From positions 1 through 51,137 of the IMG/VR virus record IMGVR_UViG_3300037294_000204: a stretch of DNA of 51,137 nucleotides. The stretch is one strand, 5' to 3'. Below the pieces are notes generated by a model, which was not told the origin of the DNA, made no database searches, and was given only the letters and a program-made list of their open reading frames with translations. Within the stretch, counting starts at the first letter, position 1. Every line of letters starts with the position of its first letter. Shown here in pieces: positions 1,533-24,023 of this stretch. The position numbers and the translations under genes are program-made. The DNA comes from a virus.

Positions 1533-2612
1533 ATGAGAGTTTCAAAAATACCAGGGCTAGGCCGATTCGGCGTGTTCATTGACGATGTTAATTTTGAAAA
1601 ATTAAGTGTAGAAGAATGGAATGAAATCGGCCAGCTGCACTTGACTAACTTAGTTACAATTATTAGAGATTGTAATTTAAATTGGAAAAATCAAACAGAA
1701 TGGTTGATGAAGTGGGGCGACACTCGATATGGCATACGCTATAACATCTTAAAAAAATATGCAGGAAAGACCTGGAGTCAGGTGATAAAACTTGCAATAG
1801 CCAACGATCCCAGTATTGATGATATTGATAAACTGAGATTATCTAATATTGCTCGTATGCAGGAAATCGATCCAACTACAGGACGGCATGTTATGCGGGT
1901 TTCGGGCAAAAAAGATCAAGATGGCAATCCGTTAGGAATGTTTGCAGAAGGCGAACTTGCTTGGCACAGCAACGAAAGTGGAACATTGACATTTACTCCC
2001 GGAGTAGCACTGCTGAGCAGTGAAGGTATGGTTGGGAGCTCTACGGGATTTTTAACTACTCCAGATTACTATGAAACGGTTTCAAATGCATTCCGTAGTG
2101 AACTAGACGAAATGATTCTATTACATAGATTTACCCCGGGTAAAATAAATCCAGGCCTAAGATTAGAACAAGACGAAGTTATGCACGCCAATATGTGCCC
2201 GGTAGACAACACTGAAATTCCTATTGTGATGCGTAGTCCAGGCGGCATTGTAGGACTGCATTATTCAATTAATACAATATATAGTATCAAAGGTGCTACT
2301 AAAGAAGAAAGCGATAAGGTATTTGACGAGATCAACAAGGGAGTATTTGTAGAAAAATATACGTATGATCATTGGTATCAAGGAAACAGTGATTTCTGTT
2401 TATTTGATAATAGCATTACCTTGCACAGAAGACTTGGCAGCACTGACAACAGACTGGCATACCGTGTACAGCATGATTATAGCAATCTTCAAGAAGATTT
2501 CTGGCAACCATACTTAACAGATGAATATGCTAAAAAATACGAAGACGAAATTATAGACTTTGTAACCACAGCAGGTATCAACGATTTTAAACTTCCTAGA
2601 AGAGAGATATAA
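1533..2612 (+). CDS. TauD/TfdA-like 2OG-Fe(II) oxygenase with altered iron triad
   Basis: A 359-residue protein with the plan of the taurine-dioxygenase family, which uses iron, 2-oxoglutarate and O2 to hydroxylate small substrates. The landmarks are AWHSNESG (residues 143-150) at the usual WHTD iron-binding site, the GMVGSSTGFLTT strand that matches the family's GG-T-F region, a distal histidine in LFDNSITLHRR (H298), and arginines R307/R311 for the 2OG carboxylate. The expected HxD aspartate is asparagine (H145-S-N147). In related folds, loss of this carboxylate is linked to halogenation or altered chemistry, so the reaction cannot be assumed to be hydroxylation. The stop overlaps the next ATG (TAATG), so it is translationally coupled to the nitroreductase-like gene. 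Family call is good; substrate unknown. Confidence 0.75.
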   Translation: MRVSKIPGLGRFGVFIDDVNFEKLSVEEWNEIGQLHLTNLVTIIRDCNLNWKNQTEWLMKWGDTRYGIRYNILKKYAGKTWSQVIKLAIANDPSIDDIDKLRLSNIARMQEIDPTTGRHVMRVSGKKDQDGNPLGMFAEGELAWHSNESGTLTFTPGVALLSSEGMVGSSTGFLTTPDYYETVSNAFRSELDEMILLHRFTPGKINPGLRLEQDEVMHANMCPVDNTEIPIVMRSPGGIVGLHYSINTIYSIKGATKEESDKVFDEINKGVFVEKYTYDHWYQGNSDFCLFDNSITLHRRLGSTDNRLAYRVQHDYSNLQEDFWQPYLTDEYAKKYEDEIIDFVTTAGINDFKLPRREI

Positions 2613-3316
2613 TGTTAAAAGATGTGTTGTCGAAGAGATTCACTGCCAAGCATTGGGATTTAGAAAAAAATATAGAACAATCAAAGATAGACTATATTAT
2701 TGACTGTGCATACCTTGCACCGAGTAAACTTGCAGCTCGACTACACAAAATTGTTGTACTAACTGAAAGTTTCAAGGCAACAGAAATAAAAAATTGGCTT
2801 TTTTACGAACACACACATACTACTGACGGTGATAGAGCAAAAGAAAACGGAATATCTTTAAAGATGTTTAATGGTCAGTATCGTGCTCCTATAGTGTTAG
2901 CTTGGCTTAATCCAATAGACCTACCAGCTCAGATTCAAAGAACCTACAGTGGCGTAACTATGTCAGTCAACGCTCCTGATTTTCAACAACGGCAAAACGA
3001 CATATTCATAAGCTCTATGTGTGCTGTTGCAGCAGCAGAGGAACAGGGATTAAACACTGGGTTTGGATCCTGCCACGACCATAGTGAAGTTGCTAAAAAA
3101 TTAGGGGTTAACGGGTATCTGTGTCCTATTGTAGTCGGTATTGGTTACGCTAGAGACATGTCTAAAGAAGAATCAGAGCACGGTGTGCTAATACCAATAG
3201 TTGATCATACAGATACTATTATCGGATTTGATGCATCTAATATTGCAGCTGACAGGGATTCTTCGCCCAATCGGAAATTTGCACAGCTGGCGGACAGTAT
3301 GATCATCACCATCTAG
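2612..3316 (+). CDS. Nitroreductase-like flavoprotein
   Basis: A 234-residue protein resembling the FMN-dependent nitroreductase family. The N-terminus has KRFTAKHWD and then YLAPSKLAARLHKIVVL, the counterpart of the family's R-S-R and APS-N-QPW-F-VV motifs. The middle segment AAAEEQGLNTGFGSCHD matches the helix and glycine-rich turn typical of the family (A-A---GLGT-w---), and LGVNGYLCPIVVGIGYA matches the closing P----GyG strand. Length is normal. In this family FMN-bound enzymes carry out oxidations and reductions, including azoline oxidation and iodotyrosine-type dehalogenation. Here it is co-transcribed with a TauD-like gene, so a redox tailoring role is likely. Its 3' end overlaps the convergent gene below by 11 bp. 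Confidence 0.65.
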   Translation: MLKDVLSKRFTAKHWDLEKNIEQSKIDYIIDCAYLAPSKLAARLHKIVVLTESFKATEIKNWLFYEHTHTTDGDRAKENGISLKMFNGQYRAPIVLAWLNPIDLPAQIQRTYSGVTMSVNAPDFQQRQNDIFISSMCAVAAAEEQGLNTGFGSCHDHSEVAKKLGVNGYLCPIVVGIGYARDMSKEESEHGVLIPIVDHTDTIIGFDASNIAADRDSSPNRKFAQLADSMIITI

Positions 3317-3866
3317 GTAATCGATCAAGCTGTTCTAAAAAGACAACGGTATTTAACTTCCAAAAAGTTTGTAGATGCTCTCTATAGTTGTGCTCGAATG
3401 ATCTGGTTAACGCACCGGTTTTCTCTAGAGCAGGGCAGTAGGTGTTGTGTACCAGTCTTTGTGACCCTACATCACTAGGATGTGTTGTAATGTATAAATC
3501 TTTATTAGCACCTGCCGCCCATTCTATACACCTTGGTATAAAAAATTGTGCTGTGGCATTTTGATGTTGTTGACAAGTGTAGCCTAAACTTCTTAGATGC
3601 GTTCTAGGCAGCAAGTGTGTTAACACACAAGTTCTTGCACATATTCTATAGGAATTTTCTAAAAAGTCTAAACTATGTGCTGCTACAGATCCTGCAGCAA
3701 TTCCGTCATAATAGAGAATCCAAACTGCCCATTCTCTTTCTTTGCGAAAGCAGTCAACTAGCATATGCTGACTACTGTTGTTGTTAAATCCTTTAGTTAA
3801 TGCTTGTTGATAAAAGTCACTGAGATTTAGATCTTCAGTCCACTGTACTAATTTATATAAAGACAC
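3306..3866 (-). CDS. Conserved phage protein, possibly GNAT-like
   Basis: About 186 residues if begun at the GTG at 3866. A TTG at 3917 would add 17 residues but overlaps the upstream gene by 65 bp and has no ribosome-binding site. Segments such as WAVWILYYDGIAAGSVAAHS, ENSYRICARTCVL and LYITTHPSDVGSQRLV have the strand-helix order of a GNAT acetyltransferase (substrate strand, acceptor strand, late YITT strand). The acetyl-CoA loop R/Q-x-x-G-x-G/A is not clear, so this is a weak structural guess. The C-terminus ends FWKLNTVVFLEQLDRLPRW. It is the second gene of a minus-strand pair with the kinase-like gene upstream and is convergent with the nitroreductase-like gene. Confidence 0.4.
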   Translation of the reverse strand: MSLYKLVQWTEDLNLSDFYQQALTKGFNNNSSQHMLVDCFRKEREWAVWILYYDGIAAGSVAAHSLDFLENSYRICARTCVLTHLLPRTHLRSLGYTCQQHQNATAQFFIPRCIEWAAGANKDLYITTHPSDVGSQRLVHNTYCPALEKTGALTRSFEHNYREHLQTFWKLNTVVFLEQLDRLPRW

Positions 3867-4542
3867 GCTTGGCTCTATCAATAAATGCTCTAGGGTAGTT
3901 GTTACTGAAACTTTCAAAAGCTAATAGCTGCATAGTTTTAGTGGTCTGTGGCACATCCCAGTCGATACCTAATGCATCAGTTTTTATCTTCATTTCTTGC
4001 TGTCTTTCCTTACTAATGTGACTTAGGTGATCCCTAACAGTTATAGGACCTTCACCTGTTTGATATGTAAAAAAATAATTAATGCTTTTCAATTGACCGT
4101 CAACGATAAAATAACTGCTCGGATGTAAACTATATTTCCATAATCCCAAAGTTTTATGACTTTGAAAAATTGATAACATCTGTTCTTGCCAATCAGGTAG
4201 TACTTGATCATACATGCATTTTTTATCAAAATGTTCTTGCCAAAAATCCACTCCGTCAATTTTTAAATATATCTTTTTTTCATGTATGTCTATATCTAAC
4301 AATTCTGGAATCTGATGTGGATAGTGCTTAGACATTAATGTTAAAAACTTAACTTCACGTTTCCATTTTTCTTCCATTAGATCGGCATCAACTACTTCAT
4401 TCTTACCTTGATGATAATCGCTGTCATTATGATACCACTGACAGAAAGTTTTTTTATCATCGCTTATAAAGCTAGTATATATTAAGTTATTTCGGCACAG
4501 TCCATTGCCTGGCACATTATTGTAATAGTAATTAAAATTCAC
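3853..4542 (-). CDS. Kinase-like fold protein, paralogue of the gene at 9341
   Basis: A 229-residue protein similar throughout to the minus-strand gene at 9341-10024: FNYYYN versus WNYYYK at the start, then RNNLIYTSFIS versus RSNMLYTPLIN, IPELLDIDIHEKKIYLKIDG versus SPEIIDIDHGRRRIFFKWHG, and VLPDWQEQMLSI versus VCPNWQHQLHSI. The order (L-IDI strand, hydrophobic strand, long helix, then LHPSSYFIVDGQLKSINYF) recalls a small protein-kinase/aminoglycoside-kinase C-lobe, with degenerate H-D-N and DFG positions; activity is doubtful. Start chosen at GTG 4542, 7 nt downstream of a late promoter. A more distal GTG at 4572 would place the promoter inside the gene and spoil alignment with the paralogue. 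Confidence 0.55.
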   Translation of the reverse strand: MNFNYYYNNVPGNGLCRNNLIYTSFISDDKKTFCQWYHNDSDYHQGKNEVVDADLMEEKWKREVKFLTLMSKHYPHQIPELLDIDIHEKKIYLKIDGVDFWQEHFDKKCMYDQVLPDWQEQMLSIFQSHKTLGLWKYSLHPSSYFIVDGQLKSINYFFTYQTGEGPITVRDHLSHISKERQQEMKIKTDALGIDWDVPQTTKTMQLLAFESFSNNYPRAFIDRAKRVFI

Positions 4543-4549
4543 GATACAG

Positions 4550-4557
4550 TATTTAAC
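4550..4557 (-). promoter_or_regulatory. Late promoter GTTAAATA (minus)
   Basis: On the minus strand GTTAAATA is followed by CTGTATC and then a GTG start at 4542. It abuts the plus-strand TATAAATA at 4558, giving two back-to-back late promoter elements within 16 bp. Confidence 0.6.
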
Positions 4558-4565
4558 TATAAATA
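4558..4565 (+). promoter_or_regulatory. Late promoter TATAAATA (plus)
   Basis: Exact T4 late consensus 8 nt before the ATG at 4574. T4 late transcripts usually begin about 5-7 nt after this element, so the mRNA would have almost no 5' leader. It would drive the six-gene oxygenase/radical-SAM operon 4574-9319. Confidence 0.75.
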
Positions 4566-4573
4566 AATTCACT

Positions 4574-5194
4574 ATGCATAATGTTGATAACGCTGTACAA
4601 AAATTAAATTTTACAATAGATATAAACGAATTATCTGAATACTATAACACTCTACAATTAAATTTTAAACATTTACATTGGACATGGGAAAACAATTATA
4701 TTCATTTAAACGACGATGCATTAACCTCATGTGTAAATAATTGTGAAACATTAATGCATGGCTGGGTGTTGCAAAGTGATATGGCAGATCGTAGTATGTT
4801 GCCGTCTATGCTGAGATCAAAACACCCTAGGGTTCCGTGGTACGACACTGAATTGATATTTGGTTTGGCTAAAAGACTAACCGAGGCAATCCCATTTGCT
4901 TACAGGTGGACCTTGTTTGTGCTGCCGCCTGGCGGAAAAGTGGTAAAACATACCGATCAAGGAGAATATGCAATTCATATACCGTTGCATTGGGATGATA
5001 ACTCTATTTTTATATTCGGCGACGCACCTGAGACAACAGAGATTACCTTTCCGCCCACAGGAAATGCATACTTGGTTGATGCTGAAATTCCCCATGCAAC
5101 AGAAAACAGCTCTTATAGTGATCGAGTAGGATTAATTTTTAGAATAAAAAGAGAATATCTTCCCGATCTCTTAAACATAAAAGGAATTATATGA
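4574..5194 (+). CDS. Aspartyl/asparaginyl hydroxylase-like 2OG oxygenase
   Basis: A 206-residue protein of the Asp/Asn beta-hydroxylase type. The jelly-roll core is in the C-terminal half: YRWTLFVLPPGGKVVKHTDQ gives the iron-binding H126-T-D128, AIHIPLHWDD the following strand, then TGNAYLVDAEIPHATENSS supplies distal H174 and SDRVGLIFR supplies R184 for 2-oxoglutarate. In this family the enzyme hydroxylates Asp or Asn side chains of proteins or peptides, which fits an island of tailoring enzymes. It is the first gene of a plus-strand operon directly behind TATAAATA, and it overlaps the next gene by 4 bp (ATGA). The N-terminal 90 residues are not recognised and may form a substrate-binding lobe. 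Confidence 0.75.
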   Translation: MHNVDNAVQKLNFTIDINELSEYYNTLQLNFKHLHWTWENNYIHLNDDALTSCVNNCETLMHGWVLQSDMADRSMLPSMLRSKHPRVPWYDTELIFGLAKRLTEAIPFAYRWTLFVLPPGGKVVKHTDQGEYAIHIPLHWDDNSIFIFGDAPETTEITFPPTGNAYLVDAEIPHATENSSYSDRVGLIFRIKREYLPDLLNIKGII

Positions 5195-5994
5195 TAAAAG
5201 GAATAGACGGTAAAGCATATTACGATATCGAACCATTTTTAAACATGCAAGAGTTTGATAAGCTGCAACCTGAAATTTATAAAGGTTTTGCTGAGGCAAG
5301 AGAGTTTGCAAAAGAAGGAACTTGGATGAAACCGGGTTTTACATTTAACGATATGAGTTATCAGCTTCATTGGAAACCTATATATCAAGCTATGCAAGAG
5401 TTTTTAGAGCTACCTGACAGTGATCCTATTAAACAAGCAGGGTTGTCGTTATATAAAGATTTTTCAAATTACCAACAACGCAATAAATTTACAAGATTTT
5501 TAAAAATGGCAATGGGAGCATACGATCCTTACATTTATTATTTTCTATGGGAAGAAGGCAGTTGGGACGACAGGACTGCAAAAAGAAAACTTACACCAGA
5601 AGCAGAATATTTTCCAGGGGTTGTAACATGGATCGAACAGTTAATAACAGACAACATTTTCGAACATATAGGCCGTGTTATATTTTTTCATTGCGAAGCT
5701 GATGGAATACCGTTTGAACATCGAGACCTAGATGCAAAGAACGGGGTTGATGTGATCGTTCCTCACAAAAATGAATTTATACATATTCGACCAGATACTA
5801 GAAATCAGTTTTATATTTGGGATCCAGAAGTTAAGATGAAACACGGACTTAACACTAGAGCCGCTTGGTGGAATGATCAAGATTGGCACGGTGGTAATCG
5901 TACTATGTCTCAGACCTACGGATTGCGCATTGATGGCAAATTTACAGACGATTTTCGAAAGAAACTAAAAATTGATCATTTAGAGAGTTATTAA
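5191..5994 (+). CDS. Putative 2OG-Fe(II) oxygenase-like phage protein
   Basis: A 267-residue protein. Its C-terminal half has jelly-roll oxygenase landmarks: VIFFHCEADGIPFEHRDLD with H177-R-D179 as candidate iron ligands, FIHIRPDTRNQFYIWDP as following strands, and AAWWNDQDWHGGNRTMSQ with distal H233 before YGLRIDG (R246). The N-terminal half is helical, with no familiar domain. It belongs to no narrow family I can name. The pattern H-x-D, then H about 55 residues later, then R 13 residues on is characteristic of the superfamily. It is coupled to both neighbours: ATGA with the Asp/Asn-hydroxylase-like gene and TAATG with the B12-radical-SAM gene. This suggests the three products act on the same substrate. 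Confidence 0.6.
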   Translation: MIKGIDGKAYYDIEPFLNMQEFDKLQPEIYKGFAEAREFAKEGTWMKPGFTFNDMSYQLHWKPIYQAMQEFLELPDSDPIKQAGLSLYKDFSNYQQRNKFTRFLKMAMGAYDPYIYYFLWEEGSWDDRTAKRKLTPEAEYFPGVVTWIEQLITDNIFEHIGRVIFFHCEADGIPFEHRDLDAKNGVDVIVPHKNEFIHIRPDTRNQFYIWDPEVKMKHGLNTRAAWWNDQDWHGGNRTMSQTYGLRIDGKFTDDFRKKLKIDHLESY

Positions 5995-7616
5995 TGTATC
6001 ACGGAATATTATTTACAGAATGTACATCTCAAAATTGGCTAGGGCGTGGGTATGGTGTACATAGACTAGCCAACGAATTAAGAAAATACGGATTCAATAT
6101 TTTAGTTGTCGACTTTGCCTTTGCAGTAACAATTGAAATGTATAAAGAAATTTTAGATAACAGTGTTGGACCGGAAACATATTTTGTTGGATTTAGCACT
6201 AGTATTTTCCCTTACAGAATGCAAGACGTTGAAGGTCAAAAGCGAGCGTCATTATTACAACATTCTTATGCAAGGGAAAGTTCGGCTACCTTTTTAAAAC
6301 TTGAAACAGAACCGTGGTATTGTGCAGGACTACCTATGCAGTTTGCAAATGGATTGTCAGCGCCTTGGTTAGAATATGTTAAACAACGCAACCCCAAAAC
6401 TAAAGTCATCTTTGGTGGCAGTAAAACATGGGAATATTTTGAAACTCCGGGTATTGATCATTTTTTTATAGGCATGGCTGAAACTATGTTTGTCGATTGG
6501 ATGCTATCTGTATCAGGAAAAGGTCCAAAGAGAATATTTAATCCTATTGTTAATTACGACATTAAAGCACAGGGCGATAAAGAAAAATTTGATTTTAAAT
6601 TGTCTACTACAAAATATGAAGTTGAAGACTTTGTTATGCCTTACGATGCACTGGGATTAGAAGTAGGTCGAGGTTGTAGATTTAGTTGTAGCTTTTGTAC
6701 TTGGCCGTTGATAGGACAAAAAAATATAAATGATTATTTAAAAACACCCGAAATGCTAAGAGCAGAATTAATAGAAAATTGGGAAAAATGGGGAGTATGG
6801 AAATACTACATAACAGATGATACATTTAATGATAGTACAGAAAAACTTCAAGCATTTCATAGCGTAGTTAAATCATTACCGTTTACTCCTATATTCTGGG
6901 GATTTTTTAGATTAGATTTATTAAGATCACACCCAGAACAGATTCCATTAGTTAAAGAGTGCGGATTTAAAGATATTATCGTAGGAATTGAAACCTTTAA
7001 TTCAGTTGCTGGAAAAAATATTAAAAAAGGTGCTAAAAGTGAAAACTTAAAACAAGCATTAATTGATTGTAAAGCTGCCTGGGGAGATGATGTCATGATC
7101 AGTAGTCAATTTATCACTGGGTTACCTGGGGAAAATTCAGAGTCTATTAGATATTCGACTGAATGGTTTATGAGGGATGATGCTCCTATTGATGCAATAG
7201 GATTAGTGCCACTGAGATTATATGCTCCGGATAAATGGGAACAATTTAGAGTTACTAGCGAGTTCGAACGAAACTATCAAAAATACGGATATAGTTTTCC
7301 TGATCCTGTAAACAGACCGTGGTATTGGGAAAAAGATGACGGAACCGATATTAAAAATTACAACGATGCCAAATTATTGGCCGAGGAATGCGAACAGAAG
7401 CTAAGTACCATATCTAGAAAAAGAAAATGGATTTTTAAACATAGTCCATTCGGCAAAGAAGACCTTACAGTAGAACGAATAAAATCATTATCGTGGGACG
7501 AGTATAAGCAAATTCCAACAGTTTCCGGTAATATGTTATTGGTAAAAGATCAAGTGATGAAAGATTATTTTACTCCATTGTTACAATTTTTAAGAGATAT
7601 GCATGCCGACAAATAA
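5994..7616 (+). CDS. B12-binding-type radical SAM enzyme
   Basis: A 540-residue protein. Residues 1-190 have a Rossmann-like cobalamin-binding plan: a start strand, GVHRLANELRKYGFNILVVD, YFVGFSTSIF, KTKVIFGGSKTWEYF and HFFIGMAETMFVDWM. Residue 222 onward is the radical-SAM barrel, with GRGCRFSCSFC supplying C228, C232 and C235 for the 4Fe-4S cluster, then YYITDDTFND, FWGFFRLDLL, DIIVGIETFN and SSQFITGLPGE. Relatives methylate or rearrange unactivated carbons, or act as in the BchE/MiaB-like groups. The usual DxHxxG cobalamin ligand is not seen, so cobalamin may be bound without a lower His ligand or not at all. It follows two oxygenase-like genes by TAATG overlap and precedes three more 2OG oxygenases. 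Confidence 0.8.
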   Translation: MYHGILFTECTSQNWLGRGYGVHRLANELRKYGFNILVVDFAFAVTIEMYKEILDNSVGPETYFVGFSTSIFPYRMQDVEGQKRASLLQHSYARESSATFLKLETEPWYCAGLPMQFANGLSAPWLEYVKQRNPKTKVIFGGSKTWEYFETPGIDHFFIGMAETMFVDWMLSVSGKGPKRIFNPIVNYDIKAQGDKEKFDFKLSTTKYEVEDFVMPYDALGLEVGRGCRFSCSFCTWPLIGQKNINDYLKTPEMLRAELIENWEKWGVWKYYITDDTFNDSTEKLQAFHSVVKSLPFTPIFWGFFRLDLLRSHPEQIPLVKECGFKDIIVGIETFNSVAGKNIKKGAKSENLKQALIDCKAAWGDDVMISSQFITGLPGENSESIRYSTEWFMRDDAPIDAIGLVPLRLYAPDKWEQFRVTSEFERNYQKYGYSFPDPVNRPWYWEKDDGTDIKNYNDAKLLAEECEQKLSTISRKRKWIFKHSPFGKEDLTVERIKSLSWDEYKQIPTVSGNMLLVKDQVMKDYFTPLLQFLRDMHADK

Positions 7617-7642: not shown

Positions 7643-8188
7643 ATGAATCTCATATATAATTATAAAAATTGGATCCCAGAAGGGCTCATTGAAATGATTT
7701 TAAAAAACGATGGCAACATTGTTCCTGTGTATCAACCAGAAAAGTGGACTGGAGTTCCCGAATGGGACTGTGCTCGAATTGAGTTAGAAAATGCAGGCTA
7801 TCCTGATTTAAAATATAAATTTCATCAATACACAATCGAAACTCCGTGTGTTCAACAATTTATAAAAGAAACTGGATGGAAATATAATCATCCAATATTC
7901 CCGCATTGGTGCGAGTACGGTCATTGGTGGATTGTAAAATATGCGCCTGGTGATATGCAACCGATGCATTTTGATCCGCACCTAACTGGCACAACTGATA
8001 GCTTACGATATACTATGATGCTAACTGATTTTGAAGATGGTCATATTTTTACTCATGATGATTATCTCCTCAACAACTATAAAATAGGAGATTTATTTCA
8101 GTGGTCCGACGCAAAGATGGTTCACGGTGCAGCTAACATAAGCATGACTCCGAGAATATCACTACAATTGAGCTTTTACAATAAATGA
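7643..8188 (+). CDS. 2OG-Fe(II) oxygenase, tandem copy 1
   Basis: A compact 181-residue jelly-roll oxygenase. WWIVKYAPGDMQPMHFDPH holds the iron ligands H109-F-D111, RYTMMLTDFEDGHIF the next strands, KIGDLFQWSDAKMVHGAANI the distal H161, and SMTPRISLQLSF the R171 that would bind 2-oxoglutarate. All canonical residues are present. The product aligns end to end with the next gene (YNYKNWIPEGLIEMI versus GNYADWITPGLVEKI at the start; HGAANISMTPR versus HGVVNLSMIPR near the end), so this is a local gene duplication. An AGGA site at 7630 supports the ATG. Marine T4-like phages often carry such small 2OG oxygenases; substrates are unknown. Confidence 0.8.
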   Translation: MNLIYNYKNWIPEGLIEMILKNDGNIVPVYQPEKWTGVPEWDCARIELENAGYPDLKYKFHQYTIETPCVQQFIKETGWKYNHPIFPHWCEYGHWWIVKYAPGDMQPMHFDPHLTGTTDSLRYTMMLTDFEDGHIFTHDDYLLNNYKIGDLFQWSDAKMVHGAANISMTPRISLQLSFYNK

Positions 8189-8760
8189 AATATATAGGAA
8201 ATTATGCTGATTGGATAACTCCTGGGTTGGTTGAAAAAATTGTATCAACTAAAGGAAATCCTACTGTACTAAATCAACCTAAAACATGGGTTGGTCATCC
8301 TTCTCATGAGGAATGGTACAAAAAATTCTGTGATGCAGGATATGATCGGTTGAACTTTTATTCAAACATGTACACTAAGATGACTGATGATATAAAAGAA
8401 TTTAAAATTTCACCGCCAATTGATCTCAACGGAAGAGAATGGGATTGGTGGTTTATTAAATTTCTTCCAGGAAGTGTTGCATGCATGCATTATGACCCGC
8501 ACACTAAAATACAAGCTACTGCCACTCGATATTGGATGGCACTGATGGATTATCATCCCGGGCATGTGTTTGTGTCTGAGGGAGGAAATATGATGACTGG
8601 GTATAAAGCAGGCGACCTGTGGGAGTTTGATCAAGCAGATCTAATACACGGCGTGGTTAATCTAAGTATGATTCCTCGAGCAACTTTTCAGTTCACAACA
8701 TTTGAACTTGGCCTCAAACACAATAAGAAAGAATTCTACACTGATCAGGACAGAAAGTAA
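8185..8760 (+). CDS. 2OG-Fe(II) oxygenase, tandem copy 2
   Basis: A 191-residue paralogue of the preceding gene, overlapping it by 4 bp (ATGA). Core motifs are WWFIKFLPGSVACMHYDPH (H102-Y-D104), RYWMALMDYHPGHVFV, KAGDLWEFDQADLIHGVVNL (H155) and SMIPRATFQF (R165), so the iron and 2OG sites are intact. It differs from copy 1 most in the segment before the HxD motif, where substrate loops usually sit, suggesting the pair act on different positions or substrates. The C-terminus has an extra charged tail (HNKKEFYTDQDRK) absent from copy 1. Confidence 0.8.
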   Translation: MKYIGNYADWITPGLVEKIVSTKGNPTVLNQPKTWVGHPSHEEWYKKFCDAGYDRLNFYSNMYTKMTDDIKEFKISPPIDLNGREWDWWFIKFLPGSVACMHYDPHTKIQATATRYWMALMDYHPGHVFVSEGGNMMTGYKAGDLWEFDQADLIHGVVNLSMIPRATFQFTTFELGLKHNKKEFYTDQDRK

Positions 8761-8761
8761 T

Positions 8762-9319
8762 ATGTTAGATACCGATTCATCAACGTTTTTATTTAATTTC
8801 TCAAATAAGATAGATTTTGAATCTATTGTTACCTCTCTTGTTCTTAATCCAGGAAAGGATGTGTTACCTAATAAAGAATTATGGAGTAAATTAAATCCTG
8901 GGTATATTGAATTATTTTCTTTATGGGAAGCGGGTAATTTTAATCTTGCCTCAGCTAAGTGGACAAACTATTATCCAGGTAAAGATTATGATAAATCAGT
9001 TACCACTACTTTTGAAGAACAGTTAAACGTAAAAACTGCTAGATCCTGGATCAGCAGAGTAGATCCAGGATATTGTACACCGTGGCATTGGGACACTGAT
9101 GATAACGAACAACATTATCTGAGTTTAGGAAAATTAAAAAGATTTAGTTGTCATGTGAGTAAACCCGAATTTGGTCACGTATTCTTGTTAGGAAAAGAAG
9201 CTCATTATTTTTGGAATCAGGGTGATACTCACGAATGGAACAATTATCATGCGTGGCATGCTGGTTTTAATTGTGGAGTAAAACCTAAATTCATGTTAAA
9301 CTTATTAGCTTACGAGTAA
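8762..9319 (+). CDS. Diverged 2OG-Fe(II) oxygenase-like protein
   Basis: A 186-residue protein, begun at the ATG at 8762 one base after the previous stop; an upstream TTG would overlap that gene by 59 bp. The segment SWISRVDPGYCTPWHWDTDD gives H109-W-D111, FSCHVSKPEFGHVFLLG the next strands, and NQGDTHEWNNYHAWHAGFNC the distal H166. The arginine expected about ten residues later is missing (GVKPKFMLNLLAY has lysines), so 2-oxoglutarate binding may differ. It is the last gene of the plus-strand operon and ends 21 bp from the convergent kinase-like gene; no hairpin terminator is visible in that gap. Confidence 0.65.
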   Translation: MLDTDSSTFLFNFSNKIDFESIVTSLVLNPGKDVLPNKELWSKLNPGYIELFSLWEAGNFNLASAKWTNYYPGKDYDKSVTTTFEEQLNVKTARSWISRVDPGYCTPWHWDTDDNEQHYLSLGKLKRFSCHVSKPEFGHVFLLGKEAHYFWNQGDTHEWNNYHAWHAGFNCGVKPKFMLNLLAYE

Positions 9320-17017: not shown

Positions 17018-18104
17018 TTTTAGTATAGAGCAATTCTGTTTCTGCTTTAGGAGCACACATTCCGCATCTGCATAACTCTTTTTTGCAAGTAATCACCGGA
17101 AGTGTGTTATTTTCTAAATTGCTTTTAAGCGTTGATAAAATTTGGTCGGCCTGATCTATAGATCCAATCGGGCCCACTGTGCCATCAAACGTCATTCTAC
17201 AATCTTTATTTAGATATATATTTTTTTCAACTTGTTTAACAAAGACAAAGAACCAATTAACACTGCAACTCCATCCTTCAAAGCGATTGTCAGGAACAAA
17301 AAATACTTGTTCATTAAAATTTTCATCTACCGCAAACGACTCTCCGCCACAACATGCTCTCCCCACTTTTGACATGTTAGTCTTGTTAGGTGATTTTTTA
17401 GCATCTTCTAATTTTTTGGATTCAATTTGAATAGTGCTTTTTCTTTTATACAACGTATCAAACCAAATAACTTGTTCTTGTTTGTAATTAAACTTTGTGT
17501 TGCCTTTAATTTGATCTAACTGTCTAGGAATATACTTGATGTTGTTGTGTTTACAAAACTCTATCATTTCTAAATTGTTTTCAAAATATTCAGGGTGCAT
17601 CATAATAGAACACTGATACCACTTGTCTGTATCTCTCAACAATAATAAATTATTTTTGGTCTGCTGTTGTTGTCTATGAGTGCTTTCTGTATGATAAGAA
17701 ACAGTAAATGAATCAACACTGTTTAAAATTTGTTTCCATTTCTTTTCAGTAGTCACTGCATTAGTAATACAATGGATTCTCAATTGCCATACATCTTTAT
17801 ATTTTGCATGTCTCTTGCGAGCTTCTTCTAGAATCTCTACAAAATTTGGATGATATATTGCTTCGCCTCCAAACAGATTTAATAAAACAACTTTATGATT
17901 GTCTGGTTTGTATTGCATATAGAGATTTGCATATTCTAATAAAAAATCTAAAGTGGCTAGACAGCTTTCATAACTGGGGTTACTTATTGAATTGTCATGA
18001 CTTCCACAATAGCTGCAATCTAGATTGCATTTCATATTCAGTTCCCAATCTATATGAAAGATTGGAGATTGATTAATAGGTTCTAATGTTTTGAAGTTAG
18101 GCAT
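16983..18104 (-). CDS. Radical SAM protein, paralogue of the 15929 gene
   Basis: A 373-residue radical-SAM enzyme: IDWELNMKCNLDCSYC (C26, C30, C33), LLNLFGGEAIYHPNF (GGEA instead of the usual GGEP) and IHCITNAVTTEKKW. It shares with the 15929 protein the RACCGGESF block, SCSVNWFFVFV, CRMTFDGTVGPIGSI and a CRCGMCAPKA ending, so the two are diverged copies arranged tail to tail. The poly-Q stretch HRQQQQTKN is unusual. It is the last gene of a three-gene minus operon begun at 20152; its ATG overlaps the upstream gene by 8 bp. Confidence 0.85.
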   Translation of the reverse strand: MPNFKTLEPINQSPIFHIDWELNMKCNLDCSYCGSHDNSISNPSYESCLATLDFLLEYANLYMQYKPDNHKVVLLNLFGGEAIYHPNFVEILEEARKRHAKYKDVWQLRIHCITNAVTTEKKWKQILNSVDSFTVSYHTESTHRQQQQTKNNLLLLRDTDKWYQCSIMMHPEYFENNLEMIEFCKHNNIKYIPRQLDQIKGNTKFNYKQEQVIWFDTLYKRKSTIQIESKKLEDAKKSPNKTNMSKVGRACCGGESFAVDENFNEQVFFVPDNRFEGWSCSVNWFFVFVKQVEKNIYLNKDCRMTFDGTVGPIGSIDQADQILSTLKSNLENNTLPVITCKKELCRCGMCAPKAETELLYTKIMQKYTIPISH

Positions 18105-19068
18105 ATTTGTTTATAATTATTTCGCTAGTGCATTGGCATATCAGTTGTTTGCAAATAACTGGTACAAGTGTTGGATTAAAGTTATTGATAAATTCTAAAT
18201 CATATAGATTATAATGATAATTTAATCCCCATATTTTTTGTTTACAATTTCCAGAGATTGTACCATCCTGAAAAATTTCTATGTGATCTACTCCGAGATT
18301 GCAGGTCCAGCCAGTAAAATGATTAATTTTATTTATGGTGAACCAATTGTTACTGGGGATTTGTATCTTCTCAGTGTCAGTGTCAACCCATGTAATTTTC
18401 TTCCAAACTGGATCTCTATTTACAGTGTTATACCAATCCATGTCTGGCATACGCTTGACTGTATCAGCAAAATATTTTTTTTGTTCTTCTGTATATTTTG
18501 TTTCACCATTATAATGTACACTCTTTGCAATAATAGGCCAAGGACAATTACTTAGTTTTAACTTTTCAATTATTGAAATACATTTTTCAAAATTGTTAGG
18601 ATCCATTAACACATTAGCAACAGTATTCACTCCTTTTTCGTAGATTATATCTGCTACTTCTATAACATGATCAGTATCAACAAACTCGTGATGAACTGAA
18701 ATTTCAATATCGTCAAACTTATCAGCGTTATCTATCCACCAATTTGATTTTCTAGATCCATTGGTACTTATGTTGATAATTGCGCCGAATTCTTCTTTAA
18801 GATACTTTGTTAAAATTGGAAGATCTTTCCATAATGTTGGTTCGCCACCAATTAGATAAAATTGAAATAAATCTTTACCGTTCTTTTTATAGAAATTTAA
18901 TAAATGAGTTAAATTATTTTTAACAAGTTCTATATCTGGCCAACGTACTGTACCTTCGTTACTACCAGGAAAACAATAATTACATTTATAATTGCATAAA
19001 TTTCCTAACATGTATTCTATTCTTAACATGTTAGGAGGATAATTATTAGTAATTCTTTTAATTTTCAT
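18097..19068 (-). CDS. Radical SAM protein with C-terminal Cys cluster
   Basis: A 323-residue radical-SAM enzyme: IEYMLGNLCNYKCNYC (C25, C29, C32), FYLIGGEPTLWKD, INISTNGSRKSNWW and IEISVHHEFVDTD. The C-terminus WTCNLGVDHIEIFQDGTISG, NCKQKIWG and CKQLICQCTSE gives the same auxiliary-cluster pattern as the 15040 protein (W-CN-G, then C-x-G, then C-x4-C-x-C). The NWW after the TNGS motif is shared with the 23043 protein. Middle gene of the minus operon 20152-16983, overlapping both neighbours by 8-11 bp. Confidence 0.85.
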   Translation of the reverse strand: MKIKRITNNYPPNMLRIEYMLGNLCNYKCNYCFPGSNEGTVRWPDIELVKNNLTHLLNFYKKNGKDLFQFYLIGGEPTLWKDLPILTKYLKEEFGAIINISTNGSRKSNWWIDNADKFDDIEISVHHEFVDTDHVIEVADIIYEKGVNTVANVLMDPNNFEKCISIIEKLKLSNCPWPIIAKSVHYNGETKYTEEQKKYFADTVKRMPDMDWYNTVNRDPVWKKITWVDTDTEKIQIPSNNWFTINKINHFTGWTCNLGVDHIEIFQDGTISGNCKQKIWGLNYHYNLYDLEFINNFNPTLVPVICKQLICQCTSEIIINKYA

Positions 19069-20152
19069 TTAAATTTATTTTTTCAACAATTTGTTCTTGG
19101 GGCTTAGTAAATAATTTTTCCGATGAGGAACCGCAAATCCTGGCACATGTTGTTAATTGTTTTCTATTCCAATAATCATACCATACTGTTTGCCAGTTAG
19201 TTGATTCAATAATATCGCTAATAGACAAATTTAATGCATTCAGCTGATCAATTCCTCCCAAGTCAGCTATTAAATTAGAATACTGACCACTGATAGTTTG
19301 TCTAATGCCATTAATAATACTATCGGGGTCAGTGTAATACAATGGAGAACTGGCAATAAAACAACACGGGTATACTATTTTTGCTGCATCAATATACACT
19401 TCATTGCTGTCTAATGCCTTACACGAAACTACTGCATTGTTAGTCCACGATTTTATTTTTTTAATAGTGTCTTTATTAATAAACTGTACTTGGTTATCTG
19501 TAGGCGGTTCAATATAGTATAGTACGTTTCCTGCATTGTCTCTTACATCGAATTGCGAAGACCCTACAAATCTAGAAGAATTTTTTACATTAAATCCAAC
19601 AAATCCTAACTCTTTTGCTCGTTTCTTAGCTTCATCAACTTGGTGTTCGTTATGTTTAAATTTTATAAACACCCACTCAGCACAGCCACCATTGTTAATA
19701 AATGCAGTAGCATTTTTTATAACATTGCTGTAAGTAGTACCTTTTCGGTATAGATGATGAGTATCTTCTAATCCATCAATCCCAAATATTACTCTATGAT
19801 TTTTTGGTAATTTAGATGGTAATGATTCCCACCACGATGTAGATCTTGCTCCACCGTTTGTGTGTATTCTTAAATTGATATTTTGATTTACAGTTGAGAC
19901 ATATTCACACATGTCTGCTAAATTATGATTTATGATTGGGTCGCCAAAGTTTCCGCAAAAATATAAACTTTCTACTTGAGCTAATACTGCCCTTGATATA
20001 ATATTCTTAAAATCGTCAGTTGTCCAATCATTTAATATTAAATTAGGGTTGTCAACCCCACCGTGAATATTTCTACTACACATAGGACAACTTGCTTGGC
20101 ATCGATTAGTAATTTCTAAATGAATGCTCTTGAGTTCGGAAAATTTAAACAT
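19058..20152 (-). CDS. Radical SAM protein with C-terminal cysteine region
   Basis: A 364-residue radical-SAM enzyme. ATG 20152 is chosen: it is 5 nt from CTTAAATA and gives MFKFSELKSIHLEITNRCQA, the expected N-terminus; a GTG at 20182 would add ten residues lying over the promoter. The cluster motif is CQASCPMC (C18, C22, C25); LYFCGNFGDPIINHN replaces the usual GGEP strand, a form seen in radical-SAM proteins with SPASM-like tails; LRIHTNGGARSTSWW and VIFGIDGLEDT follow. The C-terminal half has VVSCKALDSNEVYIDAAK, YPCCFIAS and TCARICGS, a plausible auxiliary cluster site. First gene of a three-gene minus operon. Confidence 0.85.
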   Translation of the reverse strand: MFKFSELKSIHLEITNRCQASCPMCSRNIHGGVDNPNLILNDWTTDDFKNIISRAVLAQVESLYFCGNFGDPIINHNLADMCEYVSTVNQNINLRIHTNGGARSTSWWESLPSKLPKNHRVIFGIDGLEDTHHLYRKGTTYSNVIKNATAFINNGGCAEWVFIKFKHNEHQVDEAKKRAKELGFVGFNVKNSSRFVGSSQFDVRDNAGNVLYYIEPPTDNQVQFINKDTIKKIKSWTNNAVVSCKALDSNEVYIDAAKIVYPCCFIASSPLYYTDPDSIINGIRQTISGQYSNLIADLGGIDQLNALNLSISDIIESTNWQTVWYDYWNRKQLTTCARICGSSSEKLFTKPQEQIVEKINLNEN

Positions 20153-20157
20153 GAATA

Positions 20158-20165
20158 TATTTAAG
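20158..20165 (-). promoter_or_regulatory. Late promoter variant CTTAAATA (minus)
   Basis: CTTAAATA, then TATTC, then the ATG at 20152. Same layout as the promoter hub at 12.1 kb with two base changes. Drives the operon 20152-16983. Confidence 0.6.
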
Positions 20166-20180
20166 TAGTATGCACGGAAC

Positions 20181-20188
20181 ACTAAATA
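20181..20188 (+). promoter_or_regulatory. Late promoter variant ACTAAATA (plus)
   Basis: ACTAAATA, then TTTTC, then the ATG at 20194. CTAAATA also occurs before the genes at 36740 and 36355, which supports it as a working variant in this phage. Confidence 0.6.
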
Positions 20189-20193
20189 TTTTC

Positions 20194-20826
20194 ATGAATA
20201 CTAATCACTTATTTTCAATACCGGTATCCACTGCAGATCTTCCTCCAATTTCTAAAAACATTATTGATTTTATCAAACAAATCGAATATGTACCTTGGTA
20301 TAATGCTGATAACTACTATCTTTCGATATCCAAAGAACGGCAAGTGTTAGATACTTTTAAAATTCTGCAACCGTTGCACCACGACATAATGAAGGCTGCT
20401 AACCAATATTGGCATGATGTGATCGAAGCCGATAATTCAATAAATTTAAAAATTAGACATAGTTGGATAACTCGTCATAAGCCAGGAGAATGGAATCCTG
20501 CACATACCCATTCCACTAGTTTGTTTACATCGTGTATATATTTTCAAGGTAATAAAGATTCAGGTGACCTTATTCTTAAAAAAGATAATAATTATCTTAA
20601 TTTGTTTCCAAGTATGATCGATATAGACTATCATACCAGTAACTTAATAAACACTAAAAAATTTGTTATTACTCCGACCGATAATTTAATTGTATTTTTT
20701 CCTAGTCATTTATTGCATGAATCGTCTAGAAATCTTGGAACAACTGATAGATATGCTTTAAATGTAGATTATTGGTTTGAAGGTACTTTAAGAAAAAATA
20801 GCAATGGATTTGATTCTATTTTTTAA
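20194..20826 (+). CDS. 2OG-Fe(II) oxygenase of the TIGR02466-like type
   Basis: A 210-residue protein, begun at the ATG 5 nt after the late promoter; an in-frame ATG at 20170 would precede that promoter. The core reads RHSWITRHKPGEWNPAHTHS (H104-x-H106), LFTSCIYFQGNKDSGDLIL, then NLIVFFPSHLLHESSRNLGT (H175) and DRYALNVDYWF (R186). The FPS-LLH strand and H-x-H in place of H-x-D are typical of this small marine-phage oxygenase family. It is a single plus-strand gene, convergent with the QueC-like gene (11-bp overlap). Chemistry beyond 2OG-dependent oxidation is unknown. Confidence 0.8.
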   Translation: MNTNHLFSIPVSTADLPPISKNIIDFIKQIEYVPWYNADNYYLSISKERQVLDTFKILQPLHHDIMKAANQYWHDVIEADNSINLKIRHSWITRHKPGEWNPAHTHSTSLFTSCIYFQGNKDSGDLILKKDNNYLNLFPSMIDIDYHTSNLINTKKFVITPTDNLIVFFPSHLLHESSRNLGTTDRYALNVDYWFEGTLRKNSNGFDSIF

Positions 20827-21682
20827 ATGCATGAGAAATGCCCCATTCTCTCTCAAGGCACCAGTAGCAAGTTTTACAAACAGGAATAGTATCTCCGGGA
20901 GTATAGGTTGTATAATCTAAATCTTTAAATATTTCTGGATTCATTTCTACATCACCTTCGCAACTTCTAGTCATATCTAATAAATTTTCTAATCGCAGTG
21001 TTATGTATTGTTCTACTGTCCATCGTTTGTCAACAAAAGCTATAGGACTTATAAACCAGGGATCATTCTCTTTATCATACTTGTACATCGTGTAGTGAAA
21101 TGCATTTTCTTCTGTTAATGTATCGATATCTATAACTCTATCGTTGGGCTCGTTTTCAAAATTTACAAGTTTTGGGGATCGATTTATAGCTGCATATATT
21201 GCAGAAATTCCAAGTTTTTTTGTCATAAATTTATCAAAATTAATAGTTTCGATAACCCCACCCGGGAATGTTTTTCCTGGAAAATTGCCGGGAAAGTCTT
21301 TTCCAGTAACAGGGAAAAATTTAGGTTCTAAAATTGGAGGAATTAAGTTTTGATATCGGGTTGTAATGATATCATCAAATTCATTTTTTAAATACTCGTA
21401 TGTTATTGTTCCGTGATAATCTTGCCACGGTTTTGTGTCCCACCATCGAATATGATTTAAAATAACAACCTTGGTTTTATATTTTTTTTCTTTTATCAAC
21501 GAACATATTAGATATGTTAGCATTGTTGAATCGGCCCCGCCAGAGCAATTGATACCAATTAATGGCCAATTTTTATCTAACAATATTGGGTATCCGTCTG
21601 GCAAATATTCGATTATATTGTTTGCCAGACTGTTTTTATATAGAGTTTCTAATTCTTGGTAATTATTATAGTTGGTTATCAT
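20816..21682 (-). CDS. QueC/ExsB-like PP-loop ATP pyrophosphatase
   Basis: A 288-residue N-type PP-loop protein. LIGINCSGGADSTMLTYLI holds the SGGxDS ATP-binding loop (residues 47-52). The C-terminus carries MTRSC (C241) and PVCKTCYWCLEREWGI (C269, C272, C275), matching the T-x-SC then CG-C--C--R zinc site of QueC, which makes 7-cyano-7-deazaguanine. The middle is not QueC-like: it has a proline/glycine repeat (FPVTGKDFPGNFPGKTFPGG) and a longer helical region. It could be a true QueC homologue, as marine phages use 7-deazaguanines to modify DNA, or a PP-loop enzyme activating another carboxylate. Last gene of the minus operon 24023-20816, it starts one base after the SGNH-like gene's stop. 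Confidence 0.65.
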   Translation of the reverse strand: MITNYNNYQELETLYKNSLANNIIEYLPDGYPILLDKNWPLIGINCSGGADSTMLTYLICSLIKEKKYKTKVVILNHIRWWDTKPWQDYHGTITYEYLKNEFDDIITTRYQNLIPPILEPKFFPVTGKDFPGNFPGKTFPGGVIETINFDKFMTKKLGISAIYAAINRSPKLVNFENEPNDRVIDIDTLTEENAFHYTMYKYDKENDPWFISPIAFVDKRWTVEQYITLRLENLLDMTRSCEGDVEMNPEIFKDLDYTTYTPGDTIPVCKTCYWCLEREWGISHAFKK

Positions 21683-22456
21683 TTAAAATCTTGTAGGAGT
21701 GGTTCGGCAGTTGATAGCATCAATGTCATAGTTAACATCAATTTTCAATGTGTCGTTAAGATACAAAAACGCTTCAAGGGGAGTAGGATGTTTGTCTATT
21801 CTATCGGTATTTATTATAGTTTCTAGTAATGGATATTTAATATTTTGAAACAAATCTTTATACATATTGATAACATCGGGTGCCATCAAATATAGTTCAT
21901 TGATTTCAATTCCTTGAGATAACTGCCGTTGACAGATAGTCCATCTTTTCTCTATCTCTTCTATTGTTATCTTATCATTGCGAATATCGTTATATACTTT
22001 ATCATAATCAAATCGTATTAATGGAATACTGTTAAGATTAACCCAGTCAACTCCCAAATTCGATAACATGTGTTGAGTTGCTTCGATAGCTGCTAAGTCT
22101 CTGATTAGATTGCCGGTCTCAAACTTACCAAAATCGTTCATCCATTTTTTTCCGTATATCTTTTTTCGTTGATCTGTAACTGCAAATGTCCATTTATCAG
22201 TGTACCTGTCCTCTCTTAGAGCACTAGTCCACATTATACCAATCAAATCGCCTTTAGAAAAATTATTTCGTTTATGGCATTCGACAATGGAATTAAAGAT
22301 GAATTGATTACCAGCAGCATGTTCTCCCCAGTTTTCATAAATTGAAAAATGTTGTCCAATTAGGTCTGCCCAGGTAGTCCATTTATATTTGGTAAAACTG
22401 CAACCAAATGAAAAAAATCTATTATAAGATTTTAAATTTATGTTTTCAACTAGCAT
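21683..22456 (-). CDS. SGNH/GDSL hydrolase-like protein
   Basis: A 257-residue protein. FFSFGCSFTKYKWTTWADLI places a serine in a GCSFT variant of block I. NWGEHAAGNQFIFNSIVECH gives the block II/III glycine and asparagine, GDLIGIMWTSALREDRY a central strand, and TDRIDKHPTPLEAFLYL a D-x-H-P block V with the catalytic Asp/His. Such proteins hydrolyse or transfer acyl groups and are common in polysaccharide-modification loci and in marine phages. It overlaps the methyltransferase gene upstream by 7 bp and directly precedes the QueC-like gene. No signal peptide is seen, so it likely acts in the cytoplasm. Confidence 0.7.
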   Translation of the reverse strand: MLVENINLKSYNRFFSFGCSFTKYKWTTWADLIGQHFSIYENWGEHAAGNQFIFNSIVECHKRNNFSKGDLIGIMWTSALREDRYTDKWTFAVTDQRKKIYGKKWMNDFGKFETGNLIRDLAAIEATQHMLSNLGVDWVNLNSIPLIRFDYDKVYNDIRNDKITIEEIEKRWTICQRQLSQGIEINELYLMAPDVINMYKDLFQNIKYPLLETIINTDRIDKHPTPLEAFLYLNDTLKIDVNYDIDAINCRTTPTRF

Positions 22457-23052
22457 TGCCTACCTATAATCATGTATCTAGTATACAACGGCAACTCTAA
22501 TTCTCCTGCCCATACAACATTAAGATGGCTTTGCTGTTTAAATTCTTCTAGGCTACTTGCAGTTCTAACATGCTCCGGTATTGCATAGTTGTTGCTTTGC
22601 ACCACTATCAAACTATTATAGGGCATACCGCTTAACCATAAATCATATTGATCCTGTGCGATGTGTTCGCAGCTGGTGTTGATAACGATATCTGCATCGC
22701 TTCGGATAGCGCACATGTCAGCGGTGACTGCACGGAATCTGCCATCCATCTCTTCTATCTTATTCATTGTTGTGGCAATAGATTCACATGTAGGATCTAT
22801 ATCTATGCTTCTAATATGCTTAGGGTCAAAATAAGTTGATTGAAAGAGCATACTGGCCAACACTCCTACCCATCCACCGTGAATATCTATAGTTGGGCGG
22901 CCATTACCGTCTGCTACTGAGAACAGGTTTTGTATTAACCATTCTTTACTTTTAATCTGACCAGCCCAAAACGAGTCAAGTGTTCGCATAGGATCAGGAC
23001 TGTTCCTAATGGCACACATCCAGTGATGTAGGTGTTCTGTATTTATTTGCAT
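22450..23052 (-). CDS. Class I SAM-dependent methyltransferase-like protein
   Basis: A 200-residue Rossmann-type protein. TIDIHGGWVGVLASMLFQST is the SAM-binding motif I region, with glycines after an acidic strand; IRSIDIDPTCESIATTMNKI is motif II, with D-x-D at the end of strand 2; RFRAVTADMCAI is motif III; and ADIVINTSCEHIAQDQYDLW is the motif IV strand and catalytic loop. Length fits a minimal methyltransferase without a target-recognition domain. It overlaps the radical-SAM gene upstream by 10 bp and the SGNH-like gene by 7 bp, so all belong to one operon. Substrate unknown. Confidence 0.7.
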   Translation of the reverse strand: MQINTEHLHHWMCAIRNSPDPMRTLDSFWAGQIKSKEWLIQNLFSVADGNGRPTIDIHGGWVGVLASMLFQSTYFDPKHIRSIDIDPTCESIATTMNKIEEMDGRFRAVTADMCAIRSDADIVINTSCEHIAQDQYDLWLSGMPYNSLIVVQSNNYAIPEHVRTASSLEEFKQQSHLNVVWAGELELPLYTRYMIIGRQC

Positions 23053-24023
23053 TTTGGTATTTTGCTATCTGCTGAACTTACGCACGAAGGAGTTATACAC
23101 TTCTGCGGTTTTGTAAACAGATCGAACCCTGTTAATATATTTCCCAACGGTTGGTCATGGCAACTGTAACTACGCTTGACTTCAGTACCTCTTATTATAA
23201 CACTTTGATATCCTGAATTGCAAGTCCAATCTTTAAAACGATTAAATCCGTAGGCATTAAATCTCTCAGCTTGGTCAAACAGATATTCAGTATTGTCCGC
23301 ATCATACAGGGCTATTTGATATGTTTCTTCGCCATTGGCATGCTGGGGGAATCCTGTTTGCATCTTGTCAATCATGTCTTCAGTGTAGCCCTCTACAATG
23401 CCGCTGGCAGTGGGGTCGCTTTGCGGTTTCAGTGTGACATTGATACCTCGAGCACGCAGTCTAGCCATTCTATCATATAGTTCGTAGAACTTTTCTGGAA
23501 CCATCACTTGATTAACAGTAACATGAACTTGCTCATACATTAGTTGAAGACACTTGTCTCCAAACTCTTGCTCCCGGGCGAACTCATCGTGAAAGCTGGC
23601 TGTGATACTACGGCGTTGCAACATTTCGGTATTCCTACACCAAGTGTTCCACCATTTACTGCCAGGTGACAAATTGGTAGTCATGTGTATGCTTTGATAT
23701 GTGCTTTCTAGTTCGTCTAGGTGCTTGACTAAATTCAATAACTGTTTATATGCAGTTGGTTCGCCGCCGCTGAAACTCCAATGGAATTCTGTAAATCCAT
23801 TCGATCTAGCCTGCCGTTTTATTTCATCGATGGTGTCGATATACACTTCAAAAGGTTGATAATCAAGTTTGTCTGACCTTGCATAGGGCCAGCAATAACT
23901 ACAATTGTAATTGCAGAACCGGCCAAGTATCCAACTTGTAGAGAATAATGGGCGAGATAGCATTGTCCGTTGTCCAAATCGAACAATATTTTGGAAAGGA
24001 ATATCTTGGAAATTAACTGTCAT
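23043..24023 (-). CDS. Radical SAM protein with C-terminal Cys cluster
   Basis: A 326-residue radical-SAM enzyme: STSWILGRFCNYNCSYC (C37, C41, C44), FHWSFSGGEPTAYKQL and IHMTTNLSPGSKWWNTW. The end reads WTCNSGYQSVIIRGTEVKRS, YSCHDQPLGNIL, then KCITPSCVSSADSKIPKCK, the same auxiliary-cluster plan as the 15040 protein, whose tail is CTCAADIPLTK. An N-terminal extension of about 12 residues distinguishes it. First gene of a four-gene minus operon with methyltransferase, SGNH-like and QueC-like genes. Its ATG is 10 nt downstream of GTTAAATA. Confidence 0.85.
   Translation of the reverse strand: MTVNFQDIPFQNIVRFGQRTMLSRPLFSTSWILGRFCNYNCSYCWPYARSDKLDYQPFEVYIDTIDEIKRQARSNGFTEFHWSFSGGEPTAYKQLLNLVKHLDELESTYQSIHMTTNLSPGSKWWNTWCRNTEMLQRRSITASFHDEFAREQEFGDKCLQLMYEQVHVTVNQVMVPEKFYELYDRMARLRARGINVTLKPQSDPTASGIVEGYTEDMIDKMQTGFPQHANGEETYQIALYDADNTEYLFDQAERFNAYGFNRFKDWTCNSGYQSVIIRGTEVKRSYSCHDQPLGNILTGFDLFTKPQKCITPSCVSSADSKIPKCK

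Follow-up and report, generated by a model that had tools for sequence, protein, structure and literature searches.

We analysed a 51,137-bp stretch of viral DNA (hereafter the window), which is the entire IMG/VR record IMGVR_UViG_3300037294_000204 and probably a fragment of the genome of a jumbo T4-like myovirus. Between positions 1533 and 24023, the window carries a dense island of genes dominated by radical S-adenosylmethionine (SAM) enzymes and 2-oxoglutarate (2OG) oxygenase-like proteins, with a tail-fibre-like gene at its left border and a tRNA-like RNA gene at the other edge. The existence of a tailoring pathway encoded by the virus, as proposed in a preliminary description of the sequence, is well supported by co-occurrence of the genes, late promoters and fibre adjacency. 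Genes are named below by their leftmost coordinate.

Enzyme content of the island

All nine radical-SAM open reading frames (ORFs) that had been recognized are present and reach the PF04055 cutoff. Two of them belong to the N_Twi_rSAM family (NF033640, cutoff 170 bits), namely the core enzyme 10692 (10692-12113, minus strand; 398.8 bits) and the most conserved core enzyme, 12997, which carries an N-terminal SPASM/twitch domain (12997-14253, plus strand; 329.1 bits; SPASM 3.4e-10), while the other seven score below this cutoff. The latter include an HpnJ/PhpK (B12-type)-like protein (5994-7616, plus strand; PF04055 7.8e-14; TIGR03471 4.9e-20, below cutoff), three core enzymes (15040-15936, plus strand, PF04055 1.6e-13; 19058-20182, minus strand, PF04055 at cutoff; and the final island gene, 23043-24023, minus strand, PF04055 3.3e-11), two accessory enzymes (15929-17017, plus strand, PF04055 2.3e-12; 16983-18104, minus strand, PF04055 3.4e-8) and a common accessory enzyme (18097-19068, minus strand, PF04055 2.3e-11). 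The CX3CX2C cysteines are kept at 98-100% within each of the nine families, and eight of the nine have 4-8 extra cysteines conserved at ≥90%, as expected for SPASM/twitch domains with auxiliary clusters. An additional accessory radical-SAM family, which has an HMPTM zinc ribbon (PF23545), was observed at L020:978-2036 and in 27 other loci.

Eight proteins had been described as 2OG oxygenase-like, three of which pass Pfam: a TauD-like protein (1533-2612, plus strand; PF02668 4.6e-10), an Asp/Arg-hydroxylase-like protein (4574-5194, plus strand; PF05118 1.5e-5; H126xD invariant) and a 2OG-FeII_Oxy_5 protein (20170-20826, plus strand; PF13759 5.7e-12). The remaining five have no Pfam match but show an invariant HxD, a distal His and mostly a conserved R/K among 53-63 aligned relatives. 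They comprise 5191-5994 (plus strand; HRD177...H233...R, invariant in 55 sequences), 7643-8188 (plus strand; HFD109...H161...R171), 8185-8760 (plus strand; HYD102...H155...R165), 8762-9319 (plus strand; HWD109...H166), which is related to the Asp_Arg_Hydrox gene of Pelagibacter phage Mosig, and the core family member 10021-10692 (minus strand; HSD81...H125...R135). The HxD/E...H metal triad with R/K is thus invariant in 4574, 5191, 7643, 8185, 8762 and 10021, the R/K being less clear in 8762. Despite its TauD profile match, 1533 has Asn at the expected iron-binding Asp position (WHSNES); this motif is also conserved in its relatives.

Several other enzyme types accompany these two groups. A nitroreductase-family flavoenzyme (2612-3316, plus strand; PF00881 3.8e-6) and a methyltransferase were correctly predicted, the latter being a core protein whose class-I SAM methyltransferase fold was confirmed by structure prediction (AF2, predicted local distance difference test (pLDDT) 94.6) and Foldseek (22450-23052, minus strand). 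The putative short pyridoxal phosphate (PLP) fold-type-I enzyme (12152-13000, plus strand), a relative of the Mosig aminotransferase, is identified by a weak profile match (NF006967 5e-4) and a lysine motif, and the PP-loop ATPase-like protein (20816-21682, minus strand) by weak matches (PF01171 0.0059; TilS_N 1.2e-4); a PDB sequence search with the latter gave nothing useful. By contrast, the SGNH-type protein proposed at 21683-22456 (minus strand) has no profile match and could not be confirmed. The family at 14246-15052 (plus strand) has no assigned function and has a homologue in a Bdellovibrionaceae cluster (35% identity to the L219 protein), and an accessory protein at 3306-3917 (minus strand; no Pfam match; 26 related loci) is GNAT-like by reading alone. 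As had been noted, the operons are tight: island genes overlap or stand at most 38 nt apart.

Two protein kinase-like genes had been overlooked (3853-4572, minus strand, profile A3 versus TTK kinase 1.7e-6 and Foldseek; 9341-10024, minus strand, profile match, AF2 pLDDT 94 and Foldseek), as had the tRNA-like RNA gene. The kinase fold matches, yet the HRD region reads KxSLxP (consensus read by eye), so that the catalytic loop is likely degenerate and the family may represent a pseudokinase or have another activity. A fold match of this family to WbdD was set aside because dozens of kinases score alike.

Conservation, position and predicted expression

A search with 12997 identified at least 220 viral relatives, 80 of which (75-100% identity) were kept; 34 loci of at least 21 kb were treated as full loci. 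These loci are metagenomic contigs, and family borders depend on clustering. Families 19058, 10021, 12997 and 10692 are present in all 34 full loci, followed by 15040 (32), 23043 (31), 22450 and the kinase-like family (30 each), 12152 (27) and 18097 (23). Each full locus contains at least three radical-SAM genes and at least one 2OG gene (medians 9 and 4), while signed core-gene order takes 25 forms among the 34. When the search was started from 22450 instead, each of 12997, 10692, 15040 and 19058 was recovered in 15 of the 16 loci that reached 20 kb, some contigs being shared with the first set. This reciprocal co-occurrence rules out a coincidence of loose genes, and the independent scattering in related phages that would have argued against a common pathway was not seen. 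Because the core genes stay together even though their order and strand change, selection for joint function is suggested.

The left border of the island is formed by a tail-fibre-like gene with an Mtd_N domain and GNVxGNVTGN repeats (27-1469, plus strand; PF18454 1e-9). Ten records were mapped with their flanks. In nine of them, the border farther from 23043 carries an Mtd_N-type or 27-like fibre gene, and in several the opposite flank holds the 24220-36740 tail module. No match was obtained among cultured phages with tblastn of the fibre gene or with megablast of the island.

A T4-like jumbo myovirus as the source is indicated by T4-type capsid and baseplate genes. A 269,730-bp record (G001), mostly syntenic with the window from 3306 to 50773, encodes a T4-type gp23 that shares 70-72% identity with its counterparts in the jumbo phages Phosso, Vibrio 2.275.O and PA5oct, and window gene 36740 contains a T4 gp9/10 N-terminal domain. 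These closest cultured capsid relatives have four, zero and zero radical-SAM matches, respectively, versus 7-19 in each of 19 records of the window's group, implying that the island belongs to an uncultured jumbo lineage rather than to its nearest isolates. Moraphages (PMC12619734) were considered as the same lineage and ruled out, the text containing neither radical SAM nor a link to PA5oct/Rak2. Downstream of the island (24847-26192 and 35035-36072), the window encodes ThyX, a Bax1-I family membrane protein and a UvdE endonuclease.

The 7-mer most concentrated upstream of genes in island loci is ATAAATA (115 of 196 occurrences; background 2.6%). In G001, where it also ranks first, 27 of 41 occurrences lie upstream of genes, ahead of tail-sheath, baseplate and fibre genes. 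The exact TATAAATA, which matches the T4 late promoter, is rare overall (55 versus approximately 304 for shuffled words). TATAAATA-like promoters thus appear at both structural genes and the island, as would be predicted under T4-type late control. In the window, such cores are located at 4559-4565 (plus strand, 15 nt ahead of the 4574 ATG), 12118-12124 (minus strand, 11 nt ahead of the 10692 ATG) and 12141-12147 (plus strand, 11 nt ahead of the 12152 ATG), so that 10692 and 12152 diverge from the latter two sites. Of 137 placed sites in island loci, 78 stand exactly 11 or 12 nt ahead of ATG, mostly as ATAAATATTTC-ATG, which leaves no room for a ribosome-binding site. The fibre gene, by contrast, has its promoter 39-41 nt upstream and an AGGAG-like site. 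Judging from these motifs, the island operons are predicted to be expressed late, from leaderless mRNAs. The 11-12-nt spacing was seen at many loci (e.g., L012, L028 and L031). In addition, 23 of the 80 loci encode, close to the island, a homologue of translation initiation factor IF-1 (PF01176, 1e-17; e.g., L066:7682-7897), and this phage protein is possibly related to leaderless start.

A tRNA-like RNA at the island edge

A 112-nt element (24087-24198, plus strand; covariance model 70.9 bits) lies between 23043 and the tail module. It consists of a 7-bp acceptor stem with A-CCA, a D-like arm, a T arm and a long variable hairpin, and a middle hairpin that varies in length and loop takes the place of the anticodon arm; there is no conventional 7-nt anticodon loop. 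Neither ARAGORN nor Rfam reported anything at this position. Among 31 aligned sequences, both-side changes occur at four acceptor/T stem pairs, one pair having 13 such sequences. At ≥34 bits, the covariance model detected the RNA in 43 of 75 sources, three copies being truncated where the contig ends, and at one place in G001. Complete or almost complete copies score 67-113 bits versus at most 43 bits for matches resembling ordinary tRNAs, and this separation, together with the ARAGORN result, rules out an ordinary tRNA gene. Another example was observed at L016:19000-19110.

The RNA is present in 31 of 43 loci with a visible border, always divergent from 23043 and in 30 cases 29-77 nt from its start. 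A pattern scan independent of the enzymes likewise showed a divergent 23043 relative adjoining the RNA in 56 of 72 testable occurrences. The link between the RNA and the enzymes is positional only, and the RNA is the least explained part of the island. It resembles a tRNA-Leu derivative in its D-arm GGAAUUGGUAGAC, long variable arm and discriminator A. One speculative and rather improbable explanation is that it serves as a dedicated amino-acid carrier without a usable anticodon, which a host synthetase would charge and from which island enzymes would transfer the amino acid to a fibre glycan or protein and remodel it there. If true, this would represent a new biosynthetic logic in which RNA-carried substrates are tailored by radical enzymes in a virus-infected cell.

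Candidate substrates and related gene clusters

Relatives of the island genes in cellular genomes may provide clues to the substrate. A genome-collection search with 12997 found no relative, and one with 22450 found 141 bacterial relatives. In 34 sampled bacterial loci, 25 have a GT4 glycosyltransferase near the 22450 relative (PDB E-value 1e-17) and 25 a MurG-like GT-B protein (weak, 0.0024). One gammaproteobacterial metagenome-assembled genome (MAG) contains relatives of 22450 and 19058 together with an ORF that fuses GT2 (first 108 residues, 1.2e-7) to an SkfB-type radical-SAM domain (residues 338-514, 1.4e-14). A Bdellovibrionaceae MAG cluster (L219) combines relatives of 19058 (34%, 1e-79), 14246 and 22450 with an N_Twi-like radical-SAM gene, GT2 genes and two genes related to an accessory family from the phage loci. 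In a Bdellovibrionia MAG, relatives of 23043 (51%), 10692 (45%), 15929, 19058, 12152 and 22450 occur on a 0.94-Mb contig with housekeeping genes, and this 3.1-Mb MAG encodes 13 N_Twi_rSAM proteins over the cutoff, two of which adjoin two GT2 genes; many of these 13 were observed in one chromosomal cluster (L260 / G020:C15:638000-665000). In the cultured Vibrio phage K566, N_Twi_rSAM genes are interleaved with GT8/GT4 genes, and LpxC and PagP lie alongside. Based on these glycosyltransferase neighbourhoods, the GT2 fusion, the Bdellovibrionota GT2 clusters and the K566 cluster, sugars are favoured. The preliminary description left the choice among fibre protein, glycan and metabolite open; a glycan now appears, on balance, the probable substrate, whereas attachment of the product to the virion is more doubtful.

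We tentatively prefer the explanation that the island is a late-expressed tailoring pathway making an unusual glycan for the phage's own fibres, which we regard as possible and not far from probable. It draws on the co-occurring core of radical-SAM, 2OG-like, PLP-like, methyltransferase and kinase-like genes, the fibre adjacency, the late promoters and the chromosomal cousins in Bdellovibrionota. The enzymes would act in succession on sugar residues, with radical-SAM proteins catalysing oxidation, dehydration, epimerisation or methylation, and with further steps of 2OG hydroxylation, SAM methylation and amino-group transfer; the resulting glycan would decorate the fibres during assembly. By swapping accessory enzymes, the phage would then be able to alter its host recognition, or to mask the fibre against host decoys, while leaving the fibre protein itself as it is. 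However, a number of observations weigh against this explanation. Glycosyltransferases are found in the bacterial and K566 clusters, but no canonical one was found in the phage core or within the island of the window, and eight of the ten phage records searched lack GT2. In the GT2 fusion, the radical-SAM portion shares only 21% identity with 15040. Peptides are the substrates of most characterized SPASM/twitch radical-SAM enzymes, and among proteins of solved structure 12997 is closest to SkfB, a peptide maturase. Neither late expression nor fibre adjacency proves that the virion is the target, and 2OG genes are common in T4-like cyanophages without such islands (PMC3037559).

The main rival, which we consider unlikely but well worth weighing, is that side chains of the adjacent repeat-rich fibre or of another tail protein are modified directly, in a manner resembling maturation of ribosomally synthesized and post-translationally modified peptides (RiPPs). 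The SPASM/twitch-like cysteines carried by eight of the nine radical-SAM families, the similarity to SkfB, AlbA and YydG-like proteins, the Asp/Asn-hydroxylase-like 2OG genes, the fibre gene at the border and the late promoters would all fit, but no precursor peptide or leader is present in the island and the bacterial relatives lie in glycosyltransferase neighbourhoods. A RiPP cluster with a small precursor is ruled out by the absence of any gap longer than 38 nt; a structural protein could still be the substrate. Remodelling of host-surface glycans late in infection, which would keep progeny off debris or exclude superinfection, is less likely still: LpxC and PagP beside the K566 cluster and the chromosomal location of the cellular cousins point in this direction, but late promoters and fibre adjacency suit virion assembly at least equally well, and superinfection-exclusion functions are usually early. 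The mixed set of natural-product-type enzymes, along with the carbamoyltransferase, nitroreductase and aminotransferase genes of the Mosig cluster, might instead point to the production, in infected cells, of a free metabolite, a cofactor or an antibiotic, but we think this improbable given that no transporter, carrier protein or backbone enzyme was seen and that the position beside fibres is conserved. Finally, DNA hypermodification through QueE/QueC-like use of radical-SAM and PP-loop genes is very improbable. The PP-loop gene 20816 and weak QueE model matches would be consistent with it, but QueE scores reach at most 39 bits, far short of the 206- and 260-bit cutoffs, the island yielded no QueD, FolE or transglycosylase, and the promoters are late rather than early or middle.

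The retention of nine radical-SAM and eight 2OG-like enzymes together across hundreds of uncultured jumbo-phage contigs implies costly chemistry that is important for infection. If this chemistry decorates receptor-binding fibres, it would allow phages to alter host recognition by chemical means. The preliminary description knew of no phage system with this enzyme set, but precedents have been published, none with an assigned product. Among the open-licence papers searched, none assigns a product and none deals with this core set. Campylobacter phages CP220 and CPt10 (Firehammervirus) encode 11 and 12 radical-SAM proteins and have an interchangeable module (PMC2853527). Like the window's source, they are T4-related myoviruses, with five radical-SAM genes in one module and sugar-transferase-like genes beside it; however, they show no Asp_Arg_Hydrox match and no N_Twi_rSAM above the cutoff, their proteins are 23-29% identical, and their module has a glycine amidinotransferase that is lacking among the island proteins. 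A hypervariable host-recognition cluster that includes radical-SAM cassettes is known from pelagimyophages (PMC7029224). This cluster lies, with tail fibres, between VrlC and gp14; the island may or may not have a corresponding position, several records placing it between a fibre gene and the tail module. In Pelagibacter phage Mosig EXVC030M (MT647606), radical-SAM, Asp_Arg_Hydrox, TauD, nitroreductase, aminotransferase and methyltransferase genes are located between tail fibres and VrlC, but the number of radical-SAM genes is 2-3, with no N_Twi_rSAM, no core families at high identity and no tRNA-like RNA of the island type found.

Vibrio phage K566 (OZ196521) resembles the island in having two N_Twi_rSAM proteins over the cutoff and several more below, and differs in its interleaved glycosyltransferases, lack of an Asp_Arg_Hydrox match and 23-24% identity. 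Maturation of proteusins (polytheonamide) also brings together radical-SAM, B12 radical-SAM, 2OG and methyltransferase enzymes; the enzyme mix is alike, but the island has no precursor peptide and membership is not claimed. The Bdellovibrionota MAGs (JAUHWH010000001 and DKGG01000001) share N_Twi_rSAM clusters with the 23043 (≤51%), 10692 (45%), 19058, 12152, 15929 and 22450 families, whereas their clusters are chromosomal, contain or adjoin glycosyltransferases and have no 2OG-family relative seen by blastp. Phage radical-SAM clusters have already been published, and the present core set is a variant of them, for which the families shared with Bdellovibrionota and the tRNA-like RNA offer concrete, testable handles.

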